In this document: positions 5,537 through 63,131 of the stretch, one piece after another
Layout of the letters: every line of letters begins with the position of its first letter
Numbering within the stretch: the first letter of the stretch is position 1
DNA from: Nitrososphaerota archaeon
Lineage (GTDB): Archaea > Thermoproteota > Nitrososphaeria > Nitrososphaerales > Nitrosopumilaceae
Direction of reading: 5' to 3'
Length of the DNA: 63,716 bases
Assembly: GCA_028867735.1 (NCBI GenBank)
Contig: JAGWFW010000005.1
Coordinates: forward strand, 1 to 63,716
The notes under the pieces: generated by a model
What the model saw: only the letters and a program-made list of their open reading frames with translations
Told to the model about the DNA's origin: nothing
The model's database searches: none
Program-made: the position numbers and the translations under genes

Positions 5537-6463
5537 TTATAACTCAGATTCTATTTTCTGGACAGAGTTTTTTGGAATCTGTAAATCTCGAAACGTGTCG
5601 GGATTGATTATCTTTGCCAAGATCTCAAGTCCTACTATGGTCCTCGGCCCTGGTTTGCTAAAGTATTCGTTTGCATTTACTGCGTAAACTTGGCCCTGTT
5701 TAACTGCCCGCATAGATTTCCATTTTGGCCTGTCTGCAATCATTTCATATTCTTGTAGAATTCGCTTCACATCAAAACCGCATGGCATGAGTATGATTAT
5801 GTCGGGATCAAACTTGATTGCCTCATCAAGTTCCATTCTTCTTGATTGGTCCCCTGCTGTGCTGATTCCGTTGACTCCTCCCGCAATCTCTACCATTTGT
5901 GGAACCCAATGACCAGCAGTAAACAGCGGATCAAGCCACTCTATACAGAGAACTTTTGGTCGTGCGCCCTTTGGAATGTGCTGAATGGTCTTGATTTTAT
6001 TCCTCAGTTTGGAAACAAAGTCATTTGACTCGCGTATCTTTCCAATCTTTTTTCCAATCTCAACTATGTTGTCAAGTATGCCATCAAGGTTCCTTGGATC
6101 TAGAATAAGAACTTCGGGTTTCCCCCCAAGTATTGTAACTGCCCGGTTGATCTCTTTAGTAAAAGGCGAACAGACCTCGCAAATGCCTTGAGCTACTATC
6201 AGATTTGGGTTTGCGTCTTTTAGTACTTGTTCGTCTAGTGTGTAAATGTCCTTGCCTGACTTCATAAGATCGACTACTTTTCTATCAATTTCCTGGCTTG
6301 TCATTCTTTGAGGATCAAATACAGAATGAATCACTCTTGGTTTGTTTTTTGCCTCTGAAGGATAATTGCATTCGTGCGTAACTGCAAGTATGTTTTCTCC
6401 CACGCCAAGCTCATACAGTATCTCGGTTGCACTTGGAAGAAAAGAGACAATGCGATTTTCCAT
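5537..6463 (-). CDS. Cobalamin-binding-like (BtuF-type) periplasmic-binding-fold protein without signal peptide
   Basis: This is a class III substrate-binding fold protein of the BtuF/cobalamin-binding group. It has the typical start ENRIVSFLPSATEIL, then THECNYP, and C-terminal GPRTIVGLEILAKI. An upstream ATG at 6523 would add 20 residues. The ATG at 6463 matches the family start and lies about 25 nt after a TATA-like GTTTAAAG (about 6487-6494 on minus). There is no signal peptide or lipobox and no permease or ATPase gene alongside. A cytosolic cobamide-binding or sensing role is therefore an inference, rather than transport. Confidence 0.8.
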   Translation of the reverse strand: MENRIVSFLPSATEILYELGVGENILAVTHECNYPSEAKNKPRVIHSVFDPQRMTSQEIDRKVVDLMKSGKDIYTLDEQVLKDANPNLIVAQGICEVCSPFTKEINRAVTILGGKPEVLILDPRNLDGILDNIVEIGKKIGKIRESNDFVSKLRNKIKTIQHIPKGARPKVLCIEWLDPLFTAGHWVPQMVEIAGGVNGISTAGDQSRRMELDEAIKFDPDIIILMPCGFDVKRILQEYEMIADRPKWKSMRAVKQGQVYAVNANEYFSKPGPRTIVGLEILAKIINPDTFRDLQIPKNSVQKIESEL

Positions 6464-6547
6464 CCTACTTGTTTTGTAAATGTCTTCTTTAAACGTCTTG
6501 ATCGGCATGTCAAAATTCCTCAAAACTTAAGAATAGCCCACGGCTCG

Positions 6548-42344: not shown

Positions 42345-43046
42345 TTATTTGAAGTTGATGTATGACTCTAGTTTTGTCTGATCGAAAACCATTACTGAAA
42401 GATCAGAGAACTGTTTTCCTTCCAAATCCTTTACTGTTCCAACAAAGTGCGTTTCCTTTTCAGTTGTGAGAAACTCAAAGACGTGCACCTTCATTCCTGC
42501 GGTATCAAACCCGTGATTTTTCAGGTAAACTGCAATTTCTGACTGCATAAAGTGCTTTGTGGGCTCCTTGGGCCAGGGGCGAGGTACAAGCACTATACTC
42601 AATCCATCTATCAACGCTTTTTGGAGCTCAATTTTCTTCTCTTCTATGCTAGTCGATATGTGCATAGTTATGACCTTGCTTTTGTCTAATGGTACCCTTG
42701 CCTTTGATGCAGCTACTTGCACTGAGCTTATACCGGGAACTATCTGCACATCCCCAAAAATTTCAATTAATCTATCCACCACCTCGGATTCTGAAAAATT
42801 CACATCCCCTGTAAATGGTACAACACATGTCTTGTTCCCAAATGACGAGGAGATTTTCTGGTATGCCTCCTCTTGATTCTGCATTGTTATCTCATGAATC
42901 TCCTTGCCTTTGATTAGCTCCTCGATTGTCTTGAGCGTATACTTGTAACCCACTACTATGTCACAATTTACAACAATCTCCTTGACAATATCTGTAACAT
43001 ATTTTGGAGAGCCGGGCCCTACCCCAACTGCAAAGACTTTTCCCAT
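42345..43046 (-). CDS. cbiE: Cobalt-precorrin-7 (C5)-methyltransferase
   Basis: It methylates C5 of the corrin ring in cobalamin synthesis. The tetrapyrrole methylase fold is seen in FAVGVGPGSPKYVT, the CVVPFTGDVNFSES loop and VPGISSVQVAASK. An upstream ATG at 43070 adds 8 residues, but ATG 43046 (MGKVFAVGVGPG) fits the family start. It stands apart from cobJ/cbiH (57732), so corrin genes here are scattered. The SAM-dependent methylase identity is clear; CbiE rather than a paralogue is likely. Confidence 0.87.
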   Translation of the reverse strand: MGKVFAVGVGPGSPKYVTDIVKEIVVNCDIVVGYKYTLKTIEELIKGKEIHEITMQNQEEAYQKISSSFGNKTCVVPFTGDVNFSESEVVDRLIEIFGDVQIVPGISSVQVAASKARVPLDKSKVITMHISTSIEEKKIELQKALIDGLSIVLVPRPWPKEPTKHFMQSEIAVYLKNHGFDTAGMKVHVFEFLTTEKETHFVGTVKDLEGKQFSDLSVMVFDQTKLESYINFK

Positions 43047-43106
43047 TGGTACACCTCTTGCAATGTTCAATATAATTCACAATTTAAAATCGCAGTTAGC
43101 TTTTAT

Positions 43107-57731: not shown

Positions 57732-58526
57732 ATGTTGACTGGCAAATTATACATTGTTGGAGTCGGACCAGGACACCATGATCACATGACTTTTCGAGCT
57801 AAACAGGTAATTGAAGAAAGCAATACTATTGTGGGATATGAGACATATGTAAACCTGGTACAAGACCTCATTGAGGGAAAAGAAGTTCACAGATACGCCA
57901 TGACGCAGGAAGTCGAGCGCGCTCACCAATGCATAGAACTTGCAAAAGCAGGCAAGATAGTCTCTCTTGTCTCAAGCGGAGATCCAGGCATCTACGGCAT
58001 GGCTGGCCTGATATATGAAATTCTTGCTGAAGAAGGCTGGGACAGAAAAGCAGGCCTGTACGTTGAGATCGTGCCAGGAGTTTCTTCACTTAATTCATGT
58101 GCAGCACTAGTCGGTTCTCCACTTATGACCGATTTTGCCGTTGTTAGCATGAGCGACCTGCTTGTTCCGTGGGAAATCATAACAAAAAGAGTTGAAGCTG
58201 CAGCACAAGGAGATTTTGTAATTGTGATATACAACCCGGCAAGCAAGAAAAGAATTCACCAGCTACAAGACACAAGAAAGCTGCTGCTAAAATACAGAAC
58301 CCCCAATACTCCGGTAGCCATTGTCAAGGGGGCATACAGGGAATCGCAAGAGATTGTTCTCACTGATCTGGAAAATATGGAAAGCCACCAGGACAAGCTG
58401 GGAATGATAACTACTGTGATAATAGGCAACTCCTCTACATACCAGTACAAAGATATGATGATCAATCCTCGCGGATACACATCAAAATACAATATAGTCG
58501 AGCCGCAGAAAAGCAGAAATAAATGA
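57732..58526 (+). CDS. cobJ: Precorrin-3B C17-methyltransferase (CobJ/CbiH)
   Basis: This is the ring-contracting methylase of cobalamin synthesis. Its sequence has KLYIVGVGPGHHDHMTFRAKQVI, VSLVSSGDPGIYGMAGLIYE and IVPGVSSLNSCAALVGSPLMTDFAVVSMSDLL, all diagnostic for the CbiH/CobJ family. A C-terminal GNSSTYQYKDMMINPRGY follows. It overlaps the LLM oxidoreductase gene by 4 bp (ATGA). With cbiE at 42345 it shows the cell makes corrin. Confidence 0.93.
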   Translation: MLTGKLYIVGVGPGHHDHMTFRAKQVIEESNTIVGYETYVNLVQDLIEGKEVHRYAMTQEVERAHQCIELAKAGKIVSLVSSGDPGIYGMAGLIYEILAEEGWDRKAGLYVEIVPGVSSLNSCAALVGSPLMTDFAVVSMSDLLVPWEIITKRVEAAAQGDFVIVIYNPASKKRIHQLQDTRKLLLKYRTPNTPVAIVKGAYRESQEIVLTDLENMESHQDKLGMITTVIIGNSSTYQYKDMMINPRGYTSKYNIVEPQKSRNK

Positions 58527-59503
58527 AATCAATCCGGGTAGGTCTTACCTTACCCCAAGGATGGCTGGATGAGTTTCCTACGGGCAATCCCAACGAACAG
58601 TTTCTCTTTTCCAAAAATGTTGCGCTAAAAGCTGAAAAACTTGGCTATGATGCAGGATACGTATATGATCACTTTATTCCATATTATGGAAACAACGCCA
58701 ATGGACCATTTTTTGAGGCATATACCCTACTTTCTGCTATTGCATCGGTTACATCAAGACTTAGAATTGGACAGGTAGTGACCTGCAATTCTTACAGGCA
58801 TCCGTCTCTTTTGGCCAAAATGACATCCACTCTAGATGCAATCAGCGATGGTAGACTGGAATTTGGGATTGGCGCAGGATGGTTCGAACATGAGTATGTC
58901 TCATACGGATACAAATTTGACAATGCCGTGTCAAGGATAGAACAGCTAGACGAATCACTCACTATTATCAAGAAAATGTGGAAAAACGAGAAATCAAGTT
59001 TTAGAGGCAGACACTATTCAATCAAGAATGCAATATGCAGCCCAAAACCCGTACAGAGTCCTCATCCTACAATAATGATAGGTGGTGCGGGAAACAAGTT
59101 GATGGAGGTTGTAGCAAGACACGCCACCAGATATAATCATCCGTTTGGTACTCCGGAAATACTGGAAGAAAAGATCAATCTACTAAAGACAAAATGCAAA
59201 TTGGCAAAACGTGCACATGATGAAATTGAAAACTCTGTTCTTTTGCGAGTACTTGTAGGAAAAGATGGTGATGATGTAAAACAAATCATCTCAAACCTGA
59301 AGAAGAAAAATGAATCAATAACAGATTTTATTCTTCGTTCAAGGGACAGCATTGCTCTGGGCACTCCAGACGAGGTAGCCGAATATCTCAAGCGCTATCA
59401 GAAAATTGGTATCAATTACTTTATAATCAATTTTGTTGGTCTGTCAAGATCGCTTGACATGCTTTCGACGTTTTCAAGAAAAGTAGTTACTGCACTCAAG
59501 TAG
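58523..59503 (+). CDS. LLM-class flavin-dependent (F420-type) oxidoreductase
   Basis: This luciferase-like TIM-barrel protein has 326 residues. It begins VGLTLPQGW and has VTCNSYRHPSLLAKMTSTLDAISDGRLEFGIGAGW (about 83-117), typical of the family, and IMIGGAGNKLMEVVARHAT. Members use FMN or F420; the family cannot be separated by motif alone. Coupling to cobJ by a 4-bp overlap hints at a link to corrin metabolism, but is not proof. The 3' end overlaps tyrS by 8 bp. Confidence 0.88.
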   Translation: MKSIRVGLTLPQGWLDEFPTGNPNEQFLFSKNVALKAEKLGYDAGYVYDHFIPYYGNNANGPFFEAYTLLSAIASVTSRLRIGQVVTCNSYRHPSLLAKMTSTLDAISDGRLEFGIGAGWFEHEYVSYGYKFDNAVSRIEQLDESLTIIKKMWKNEKSSFRGRHYSIKNAICSPKPVQSPHPTIMIGGAGNKLMEVVARHATRYNHPFGTPEILEEKINLLKTKCKLAKRAHDEIENSVLLRVLVGKDGDDVKQIISNLKKKNESITDFILRSRDSIALGTPDEVAEYLKRYQKIGINYFIINFVGLSRSLDMLSTFSRKVVTALK

Positions 59504-61240: not shown

Positions 61241-62329
61241 TTGAAAATTCCTATAAACACTCCAGTAATAGGAAGGGAAGAAATCAACGAAATACGATCT
61301 GTGTTACTAAAAAAATCGTTAACGACTGCTGCAAATACAGGCGGCAAAAGAGTTCAAGAATTTGAAAAACTACTTGCAGATTATACCGGATCAAGGTACG
61401 CAGTAGCAGTAAATTCAGGAACAGCAGCATTACAAGCAGCTCTTTATGCCCTTGACATAAAACATGGTGACGAAGTACTGTTACCGTCATTTACCTTTGT
61501 AGCAACTGCAAATGCTGTCGTATCTGTTGGGGCAAAGCCGGTATTTGTTGACATACTTCCAACCAATTATACCATGGATCCGGACGATCTGAGAAAAAAG
61601 GTTACAAAAAAATCAAAGGCGATCATACCGGTACATCTATACGGGAATTTTGCATACATGGATGAAATTTCTGAAATTGCAAACAAGCACAATGTGGACA
61701 TAATTGAAGACGCCGCACAGTCGCTGGGAACTACATACAAAAACAAACAATCGGGGACATTCTCGCGTCTAGGTTGTTTCAGCATGTATGCCGCAAAGGT
61801 TGTGACGGCAGGAGAGGGCGGGGCAATTGTCACAAGCGAAAAAGGGCTATATGAAAAACTCCGCAAGATAAGAAATCACGGAATGCTACATGGATATGAC
61901 ACCAGAATCTTAGGACTAAACCTTCGACTTCCTGAAATATCGGCCGCCATAGCCAAAGTCCAAATGAAAAAACTTCCCCAACTTCTCAAAAAAAGAAAGA
62001 GAAACGCCGAGGCCTTAACCAGTCTTTTAGATGAATTGGATATTACACTGCCAACCGAAAGAGCAGGCGTCAAGGTAAACTGGTATCTCTACACCATCTC
62101 CACAAAGAATCGCAACAAGTTGGCAAAACAACTAAACGCAAAAGGAATAGGCGCCACGGCTTATTATCCGATTCCAGCTCACAAGACCCCGTTTTATAAT
62201 GACAAGACAAAGCTCCCAATCACCGACTGGGCCGCTTCTATTGTTCTAAGCTTACCTGTGCATCCGCTTGTTACAGAAAATGATCTACACTACATTTCAA
62301 AAACCATGCATCAACTAGTTAGAAAATGA
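61241..62329 (+). CDS. DegT/DnrJ/EryC1/StrS-type sugar aminotransferase
   Basis: This PLP-dependent enzyme for nucleotide-sugar amination has 362 residues. It contains AVAVNSGTAALQAALYAL (about 52-69), the EDAAQSLG Asp loop and the Schiff-base region FSMYAAKVVTAGEGGAIV, where the Lys follows AA. Substrates are unknown; cell-surface glycan synthesis is the family norm. The TTG start lies about 26 nt after a TATA-like aattatag (about 61210). It overlaps the MtrA-like gene by 4 bp (ATGA). Confidence 0.92.
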   Translation: MKIPINTPVIGREEINEIRSVLLKKSLTTAANTGGKRVQEFEKLLADYTGSRYAVAVNSGTAALQAALYALDIKHGDEVLLPSFTFVATANAVVSVGAKPVFVDILPTNYTMDPDDLRKKVTKKSKAIIPVHLYGNFAYMDEISEIANKHNVDIIEDAAQSLGTTYKNKQSGTFSRLGCFSMYAAKVVTAGEGGAIVTSEKGLYEKLRKIRNHGMLHGYDTRILGLNLRLPEISAAIAKVQMKKLPQLLKKRKRNAEALTSLLDELDITLPTERAGVKVNWYLYTISTKNRNKLAKQLNAKGIGATAYYPIPAHKTPFYNDKTKLPITDWAASIVLSLPVHPLVTENDLHYISKTMHQLVRK

Positions 62330-62805
62330 ATCTAGTAGAAGAGATAGCAGGTGAACTATGCAAGATCTTGCTCCCCATAGAGGACAGAGTTTACTTTGGA
62401 AATTCAGAATCTAATGTATCAGTATGCACCCTGTCTAGCATGAATCTGCTTGATGAAATTGCCAATTCCTCACTCATGTCTAAAATCAATGTTGCCGGAC
62501 GATTGTTATCAGAAAACAAGGGAATCGATATGCTTGTCAGACATGTAACATCAAATGCAAAAATTCGTGTCATTGTGCTATGTGGCAAAGATACGACAGG
62601 ACACAGGCCCGGATACTCATTATTGTGTTTGCACAAAAATGGAACGGACAAAAATGGAAGAATAATCGGATCTCAAAGCCCAGATCCAGTTGTGTCATTA
62701 ACAAATAGTGAGGTGAGCAGGTTTCAAAATCAAATTAAAATAATAGACAGGATAGGAGAAACTGACATCTCAAATCTCAAAACAACAATCATTAAAATTC
62801 AGTAA
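62326..62805 (+). CDS. MtrA-like cobamide-binding domain protein
   Basis: The 159-residue protein resembles the cytoplasmic domain of MtrA, the corrinoid subunit of tetrahydromethanopterin S-methyltransferase. It has LSENKGIDMLVRHVTSNAKIRVIVLCGKDTTGHRPGYSLLCLHKNG and NGRIIGSQSPDPVV. The His in TGHRPGYS matches the cobalt-binding His of MtrA. It lacks the C-terminal membrane anchor. No other mtr gene lies nearby, so methyl transfer to CoM is unlikely. It is coupled to the DegT gene, and could bind or sense cobamide. Confidence 0.75.
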   Translation: MNLVEEIAGELCKILLPIEDRVYFGNSESNVSVCTLSSMNLLDEIANSSLMSKINVAGRLLSENKGIDMLVRHVTSNAKIRVIVLCGKDTTGHRPGYSLLCLHKNGTDKNGRIIGSQSPDPVVSLTNSEVSRFQNQIKIIDRIGETDISNLKTTIIKIQ

Positions 62806-63131
62806 CCGTCAATCTGCCTTTGTTTGTTGATCTGGTGTTTTTTCTGATATTCTTTTAGTATGTCTTCGGGGGTCATGTTGAGTTCAAGTGATGCCTGGAC
62901 CACAAAATGCCAGATGTCAATAAGTTCTTCCCTTGCTGCGGCCTCGTCAAACTCTGATGGCTTTTTCCACCATTTCCAGTTTGTTGTCCGCTGTAGTTCG
63001 ACTGCCTCATGAATTATGGCAGTGCACAATGAAGAAATCTTCCCCTGCGCATCCTTTGGATAACGCTCAAGATTCATCATCTTTTCCAGATTCTTTTGTA
63101 GCACAAAAATTGTATCAAGTTTGTCTTCCAT
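62799..63131 (-). CDS. dUTPase/MazG-like nucleotide pyrophosphohydrolase
   Basis: The all-helical protein (110 residues) has IHEAVELQRTTNWKWWKKPSEFDEAAAREELIDIWHFVVQASLEL. This contains the ExxE...ExxD metal-binding helices of the dimeric dUTPase/MazG superfamily. The WKWW segment is typical of the dUTPase side. It probably removes dUTP or damaged nucleotides. The 3' end overlaps the MtrA-like gene by 7 bp. Confidence 0.8.
   Translation of the reverse strand: MEDKLDTIFVLQKNLEKMMNLERYPKDAQGKISSLCTAIIHEAVELQRTTNWKWWKKPSEFDEAAAREELIDIWHFVVQASLELNMTPEDILKEYQKKHQINKQRQIDGY

Follow-up and report, generated by a model that had tools for sequence, protein, structure and literature searches.

A soluble MtrA-family protein with an invariant cobalt site in presumed ammonia-oxidizing archaea, tentatively a corrinoid methyl carrier

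Main finding

The window, which is the whole 63,716-nucleotide stretch of DNA that was analysed, encodes a soluble single-domain protein of the MtrA family in which the residues that hold cobalt in methanogen MtrA are intact. A small MtrA relative of this kind is common to most of the sampled genomes of the presumed ammonia-oxidizer families. We tentatively propose, with a probability of about 0.4, that it acts as a corrinoid carrier with the MtrA fold, a diffusible methyl shuttle which is reduced by a split-barrel protein, and not as part of the Mtr sodium pump. Ammonia-oxidizing archaea are regarded as major producers of vitamin B12 in the sea and in soil, and a conserved extra cobamide protein would alter the list of B12 uses in these organisms. 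The case also shows the fate of a part of methanogenesis in relatives that make no methane. The features of the window discussed below are as follows.

42345..43070, minus strand: CbiE precorrin methyltransferase (TIGR02467, 93.3 bits, cut-off 92.9)
57732..58526, plus strand: CobJ/CbiH precorrin-3B C17-methyltransferase (TIGR01466, 315 bits, cut-off 246)
61241..62329, plus strand: DegT/DnrJ/EryC1/StrS aminotransferase, overlapping the MtrA-like reading frame by 4 nt (ATGA)
62326..62805, plus strand: MtrA-family soluble protein, single domain (PF04208, PDB sequence matches, AlphaFold2 model)
62512..62517, plus strand: codons of Glu63 and Asn64, equivalent to MtrA Glu54 and Asn55, invariant in 58/58 aligned rows
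62602..62604, plus strand: codon of His93 (the His of TGHRPGYS), equivalent to MtrA His84, invariant in 58/58 aligned rows
62799..63131, minus strand: dUTPase_2 (MazG-like), convergent, right edge of the locus and +1 neighbour of MtrA in 47/65 loci

Family assignment and predicted fold

The reading frame starts with ATG and encodes 159 amino acids. In the profile search it matched PF04208 (MtrA) with 90.1 bits (E = 1.7e-25), well over the Pfam cut-off of 25, which confirms the MtrA likeness proposed in the first-pass annotation, and it was the only PF04208 match in the window's genome. A chance match is excluded because this 90-bit score goes together with a domain common to 57 relatives. The score against TIGR01111, the equivalog model for MtrA of the Mtr complex, was 82.3 bits and thus below the cut-off of 249.15. 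Sequence matches in the PDB were 5laa, 5l8x, 8q3v, and 9qtq (E 3e-19 to 1.1e-13). The AlphaFold2 model had a mean pLDDT of 88.4, with residues 1-19 below 50 and confident prediction from residue 20. It aligned with the cobalamin-bound MtrA 5laa_B at Z 21.5 (137 aligned residues, rmsd 1.9) and with 9qtr, 9qts, and 5l8x at Z 21.0-21.4; the best match to a structure other than MtrA had Z 8.5. The predicted structure therefore has the Rossmann-like MtrA fold, as the earlier reading of the sequence had suggested. In the structural alignment the last residue of the protein pairs with residue 151 of 5laa_B. Judged by this end of the alignment and by the length of 159 residues, the C-terminal juxtamembrane and anchor part is absent, and the claimed lack of a membrane anchor is borne out. 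No output domain was found in the protein by Pfam.

Methanogen MtrA (5l8x, 8q3v, 9qtr) shares with the window protein the whole-domain fold, the axial His, and residues Glu54, Asn55, Gly57, and Pro112. However, the methanogen Mtr complex possesses the anchor and MtrH, whereas the window protein lacks the anchor and the window's genome, 84.7% complete, gave no match to PF02007 (MtrH). MtrH occurred in 4/200 genomes of the class, all of them in families f6, f8, and f9, and in none of families f1, f2, f3, and f5. The first-pass claim that all other mtr genes are absent thus holds for MtrH. The cytoplasmic methanogen homologues of MtrA (M. fervidus, 5laa) resemble the window protein in being soluble and in consisting of the corrin domain only. 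These homologues have 170-180 residues and 60-97% identity to the truncated membrane MtrA (PMC4915002), whereas the window protein has 159 residues and 34% identity to 5laa_B in the structural alignment. Excerpts of two sources describe MtrAH in non-methanogens, namely Asgard lineages (PMC9723677) and Thorarchaeia (PMC9635834). There too, organisms that are no methanogens have MtrA while most of the complex is missing; the difference is that MtrH is kept in those lineages, whereas families f1, f2, f3, and f5 have 0 of the 4 MtrH matches in 200 genomes of the class.

Conservation of the cobalt site

The window protein was aligned with 57 relatives (37-89% identity to it), giving 58 rows numbered after MtrA of Methanothermus fervidus; L066, L073, and L075, in which MtrA was missed by the gene caller, stand outside these rows. 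His93, Glu63, Asn64, Gly66, and Gly92 of the window protein are invariant in 58/58 rows, whereas column identity averages 52% overall; on the M. fervidus ruler, His84, Glu54, Asn55, Gly57, and Gly83 are identical in all 58. In MtrA, His84 is the lower axial cobalt ligand, the Glu54 carboxylate holds that His, Asn55 touches the corrin ring, and Asn64 contacts the nucleotide tail (PMC4915002). The His of TGHRPGYS, which had been proposed as cobalt ligand from the sequence, aligns with M. fervidus His84 and is kept in every row of the window's group. The position of MtrA Thr53 is occupied by Ser in 57/58 rows. The position of MtrA Asn64 retains Asn in 2/58 rows and is changed in 56/58, so the lower ligand may sit differently or more weakly. 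The meander, GAIPF-Y/F-xEN in methanogen MtrA, reads mostly S-P-x-P in the 58 rows, where it is one residue shorter (one column empty) in 57/58, and Pro112 is its only invariant residue.

Because the ligand residues are invariant and the average column is not, the alignment indicates that the corrin and axial-ligand side is under selection and that the segment proposed to relay movement to the sodium pump is not. With the cobalt site kept throughout and the relay rewritten, the role of this relay becomes testable by comparison. The ligand residues and the fold together suggest that the protein very probably binds a cobamide. It might instead be a remnant that has kept the fold and lost cofactor binding, as the absence of the gene from a number of relatives and the loss of the His in the f16 branch could suggest; yet ligand residues unchanged in 58/58 rows, in an alignment of 52% mean identity, speak for a site under selection and make a remnant highly improbable.

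Distribution and phylogeny

Presumed ammonia oxidizers were classed by family membership alone (f1, f2, f3, and f5), the families being recognised from the titles of a few loci (L005, L006, L007) and otherwise inferred. The 188 genomes of these families are those appearing among the results for PF04208, DUF4346, the split-barrel protein, MetE, and PF02607, and G014, G024, G033, G175, and G212 of the 250 class genomes were left out of the family counts. PF04208 was present in 162/250 genomes of the class, one per genome among the matches listed. The four-family group of the window accounted for 155 positives out of 188 genomes (f1 120/146, f2 6/6, f3 28/35, f5 1/1), and 7 positives lay elsewhere. 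In the phylum sample the domain occurred in 53/250 genomes, 36 of the 53 in f1, f2, and f3. Two of the f1 negatives are doubtful, as MtrA is cut by the contig end in G215 and broken in G086. Counted by hand, the gene was present in 14/20 sampled f1 genera and absent from all sampled genomes of g8, g9, g13, g15, g17, and g19. Such a patchy genus distribution within f1 is more in keeping with an accessory pathway than with core metabolism.

In the MtrA tree, which rests on few columns and leaves many inner forks without resolution, all 58 rows fall on the same side of a branch supported at 100/99. This clade of their own stands apart from canonical MtrA, from an ArsP/ArsR-linked clade, and from the DUF4346 fusions. 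The group of the window protein is therefore a new clade within an established family and no new kind of system. No description of the gene in ammonia oxidizers was found in the open-licence PMC literature; the "MtrA" named among two-component systems in an excerpt of PMC4084955 is taken as an unrelated namesake.

DegT and the neighbourhood in f1

The first-pass annotation had described the protein as translated together with a DegT sugar aminotransferase. The overlap is real: in each of the 42 f1 loci where MtrA was called, DegT lies upstream and overlaps it, by 4 nt in 26, by 8 nt in 9, and by more in 7, where the overlaps above 8 nt mostly come from the gene caller choosing an upstream start. 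Adjacency alone says little, because the surrounding block is also widely conserved; across the 65 loci with a called MtrA, the tyrosyl-tRNA synthetase cluster was present in 42, dUTPase_2 in 47, and the PfkB kinase in 42. Of the 26 f1 genomes that gave no MtrA match, 13 have DegT at E 1e-60, at 14 places. In seven loci (L145, L147, L149, L150, L151, L153, L154) DegT stands beside dUTPase_2 and MtrA is missing, with no six-frame match at E 0.01. L146 is a false negative with MtrA cut by the contig end, and in L148 MtrA is broken into two frames. A dUTPase_2 gene was not found within 1.5 kb in L152 and L155-L158, of which L156-L158 are distant DegT copies. On a quick DegT tree the presence and absence of MtrA needs at least 5 changes, of which the starred branches force only 1; several losses of MtrA within f1 are likely from this pattern.

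Where MtrA was called in f2, f3, and f5, the gene before it is never DegT. DegT was rejected as a functional partner, since seven loci keep it without MtrA and the other families have a different gene upstream. Of the proposed pairing, the overlap thus stands, and the functional link is not supported, given the seven MtrA-less loci and the split-barrel gene upstream in 13/18 loci of f2, f3, and f5. The same observations weigh on the idea of a cobamide-dependent sensor or regulator, or of a protein that works with the DegT aminotransferase. The 42 overlapping gene pairs in f1 would favour such a role, but the DegT and dUTPase_2 loci devoid of MtrA, the different upstream gene elsewhere, and the lack of an output domain by Pfam make it quite improbable.

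A split-barrel neighbour in f2, f3, and f5

Directly upstream of MtrA and on the same strand, 13/18 loci of f2, f3, and f5 carry a gene for a split-barrel protein roughly 130 residues long; L073 and L075 are among these 18 loci. Its stop codon is 20-107 nt ahead of the MtrA domain, and the gene is missing upstream in L007, L076, L080, L087, and L088 (5/18). The wider neighbourhoods of the three families differ from one another. The top structure matches of the split-barrel model were the F420-binding MSMEG_6526, 4zky and 5jv4, with flavin- and heme-type proteins of this fold close behind. The neighbour is therefore alike in fold to F420-type split-barrel proteins, but unlike the corresponding families in its scores against TIGR03668 (47 vs 119 bits) and TIGR03618 (40 vs 79 bits), which are far under the cut-offs. 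Thaumarchaeota are described as commonly producing F420 in an excerpt of PMC8498797.

Across the 188 genomes, at a split-barrel threshold of E 1e-20, both genes were present in 126, MtrA only in 29, the split-barrel gene only in 11, and neither in 22, giving an odds ratio of 8.7 with kinship ignored and paralogues pooled. The pair is not obligate, because the split-barrel gene is absent from 29/155 MtrA-positive genomes and present in 11/33 MtrA-negative ones, and 15/152 split-barrel matches fall outside f1, f2, f3, and f5. In f1 the two genes are non-adjacent: the distance is about 8 kb in 5 of the loci that were fetched and hundreds of kb in, for example, G044 and G048, and in the window's genome they lie on different contigs. 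At the level of f1 genera (hand count), the split-barrel gene was missing in 6/6 genera without MtrA and in 4/14 with it (p 0.011), a pattern that may reflect genome reduction alone. It is reasonable to regard the split-barrel reductase as a partner in three families, as a candidate and not an obligate one.

Cobamide genes

The two corrin-synthesis genes that had been noticed at 42345 and 57732 are confirmed as CbiE and CobJ/CbiH, and CbiD is present elsewhere in the window's genome. Several loci carry cobamide genes close to MtrA. The CobJ cluster lies upstream of it in 41 f1 loci, and a BtuR/CobO cluster gene at -1 to -3 on the opposite strand was found in five (L077, L078, L080, L086, L088) of the 12 f3 loci, L077-L088. 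Pfam and NCBIfam identify the L077 copy as a corrinoid adenosyltransferase, and CbiD and CbiG follow downstream of MtrA in this locus. These neighbours, together with BluB downstream in L059, would suit a protein that buffers corrinoid or passes it to adenosyltransferase or mutases, where the split-barrel protein would reduce cob(II) and no methyl group would be involved. Nevertheless, CbiD was detected in 30/33 MtrA-negative genomes of f1, f2, f3, and f5 (f1 25/26, f3 5/7), as in 148/155 MtrA-positive ones, so that a requirement of MtrA for cobamide synthesis was rejected. No cobamide genes were seen by eye near MtrA in the f2 and f5 loci, and proximity in two lineages carries little weight. 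A role in cobamide handling is accordingly rather unlikely.

Three further observations concern this part of the genomes. The BluB gene (dimethylbenzimidazole synthase; L059:1151-1861, 230 bits, cut-off 150) lies about 6 kb downstream of MtrA and adjoins an FMN-reductase-like gene. In the window (57732-59503, plus strand), CobJ overlaps by four bases the gene of an F420-type luciferase-like oxidoreductase (TIGR03560, 239.9 bits, cut-off 231.4), whose cluster was found in 14 fetched loci. A Peripla_BP_2 substrate-binding protein is encoded at 5537-6523 on the minus strand of the window, with weak matches to BtuF, heme, and F420-0 transporters, all under the NCBIfam cut-offs.

Other candidate partners

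No methyltransferase gene was seen next to MtrA in the loci examined. PF14251 (DUF4346) had no match in the window's genome and occurred in 20/250 class genomes; it was rejected as a partner, since none of these 20 belongs to the MtrA-bearing families f1, f2, f3, and f5. Methionine synthase would be another conceivable partner: in an excerpt of PMC7857596, Price et al. predict methanogen MtrA as the methyl donor of MesA, and the window protein could by analogy be a methyl donor or a reactivation partner. However, the window's genome gave no match to PF01717, the MetE catalytic domain, which was present in 10/146 f1 and 1/35 f3 genomes. MtrA occurred in 15/18 genomes with PF01717 and in 140/170 without it (odds ratio 1.07, p = 1), and PF02607, the MetH-type corrinoid domain, was near-universal (152/155 genomes with MtrA and 31/33 without, some matches being weak). 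With MtrA presence independent of either profile, the methionine-synthase link was rejected and has a very low probability. Regarding the synthases themselves, most f1 and f3 genomes have PF02607 and lack the MetE domain, and MetE is present in the 6 f2 genomes, the f5 genome, g16, g18, g20, and a few others (such as G160 and G213 of g9). From these profile matches, one type of methionine synthase seems to have been swapped for the other repeatedly.

Proposed function as a methyl carrier

According to the proposed carrier mechanism, the cobamide would be bound in the base-off/His-on state, His93 occupying the lower face of cobalt and Glu63 lying behind this His, as the invariant residues and the fold suggest. 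The cob(I)amide would accept a methyl group from one enzyme and deliver it to a second, and cob(II)amide formed by oxidation would be returned to cob(I) by the F420H2- or flavin-dependent split-barrel protein. The methyl group as cargo is a guess by analogy, the default for this fold, and the split-barrel protein as reductase is likewise guessed. A function in the Mtr sodium pump is disfavoured because MtrH was not found and the relay segment is rewritten. Of the two roles named in the first-pass annotation, a cobamide-dependent carrier or sensor, the carrier is thus the best reading, and no positive evidence was found for the sensor. A wider reading, which we consider possible but doubtful, is that ammonia-oxidizing archaea have a third cobamide system besides the mutases and methionine synthase, namely an oxygen-tolerant, F420- or flavin-driven methyl shuttle of MtrA type, freed from methanogenesis and serving some other methyl acceptor.

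Related MtrA proteins in other lineages

A second MtrA clade with intact His (support 100/100, 7 rows) comprises L009/L090 and L010/L091 (f9, f10), L128-L131, and L133. An ArsP_1 permease gene precedes MtrA in L090 and L091, assigned by Pfam in L091 and by sequence cluster in L090. L091 also has Thioredoxin_3 and DUF169 genes before MtrA, and in L133 an ArsR-type regulator follows it. These proteins are possibly cobamide proteins of metalloid handling. In L092-L095 (f16), MtrA is fused to DUF4346, which is pterin-binding by Pfam naming, and the cobalt His and Glu are both lost in 4/4, so the MtrA fold can outlive cobalt ligation. The proteins of L011/L096 and L132 have an intact MtrA His and are extended at the N-terminus by a segment containing several Cys. 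Their C-terminal region is assigned to DUF4346 by Pfam in L096 and has a similar appearance in L132; each protein might by itself act as a methyl-pterin to corrinoid enzyme.
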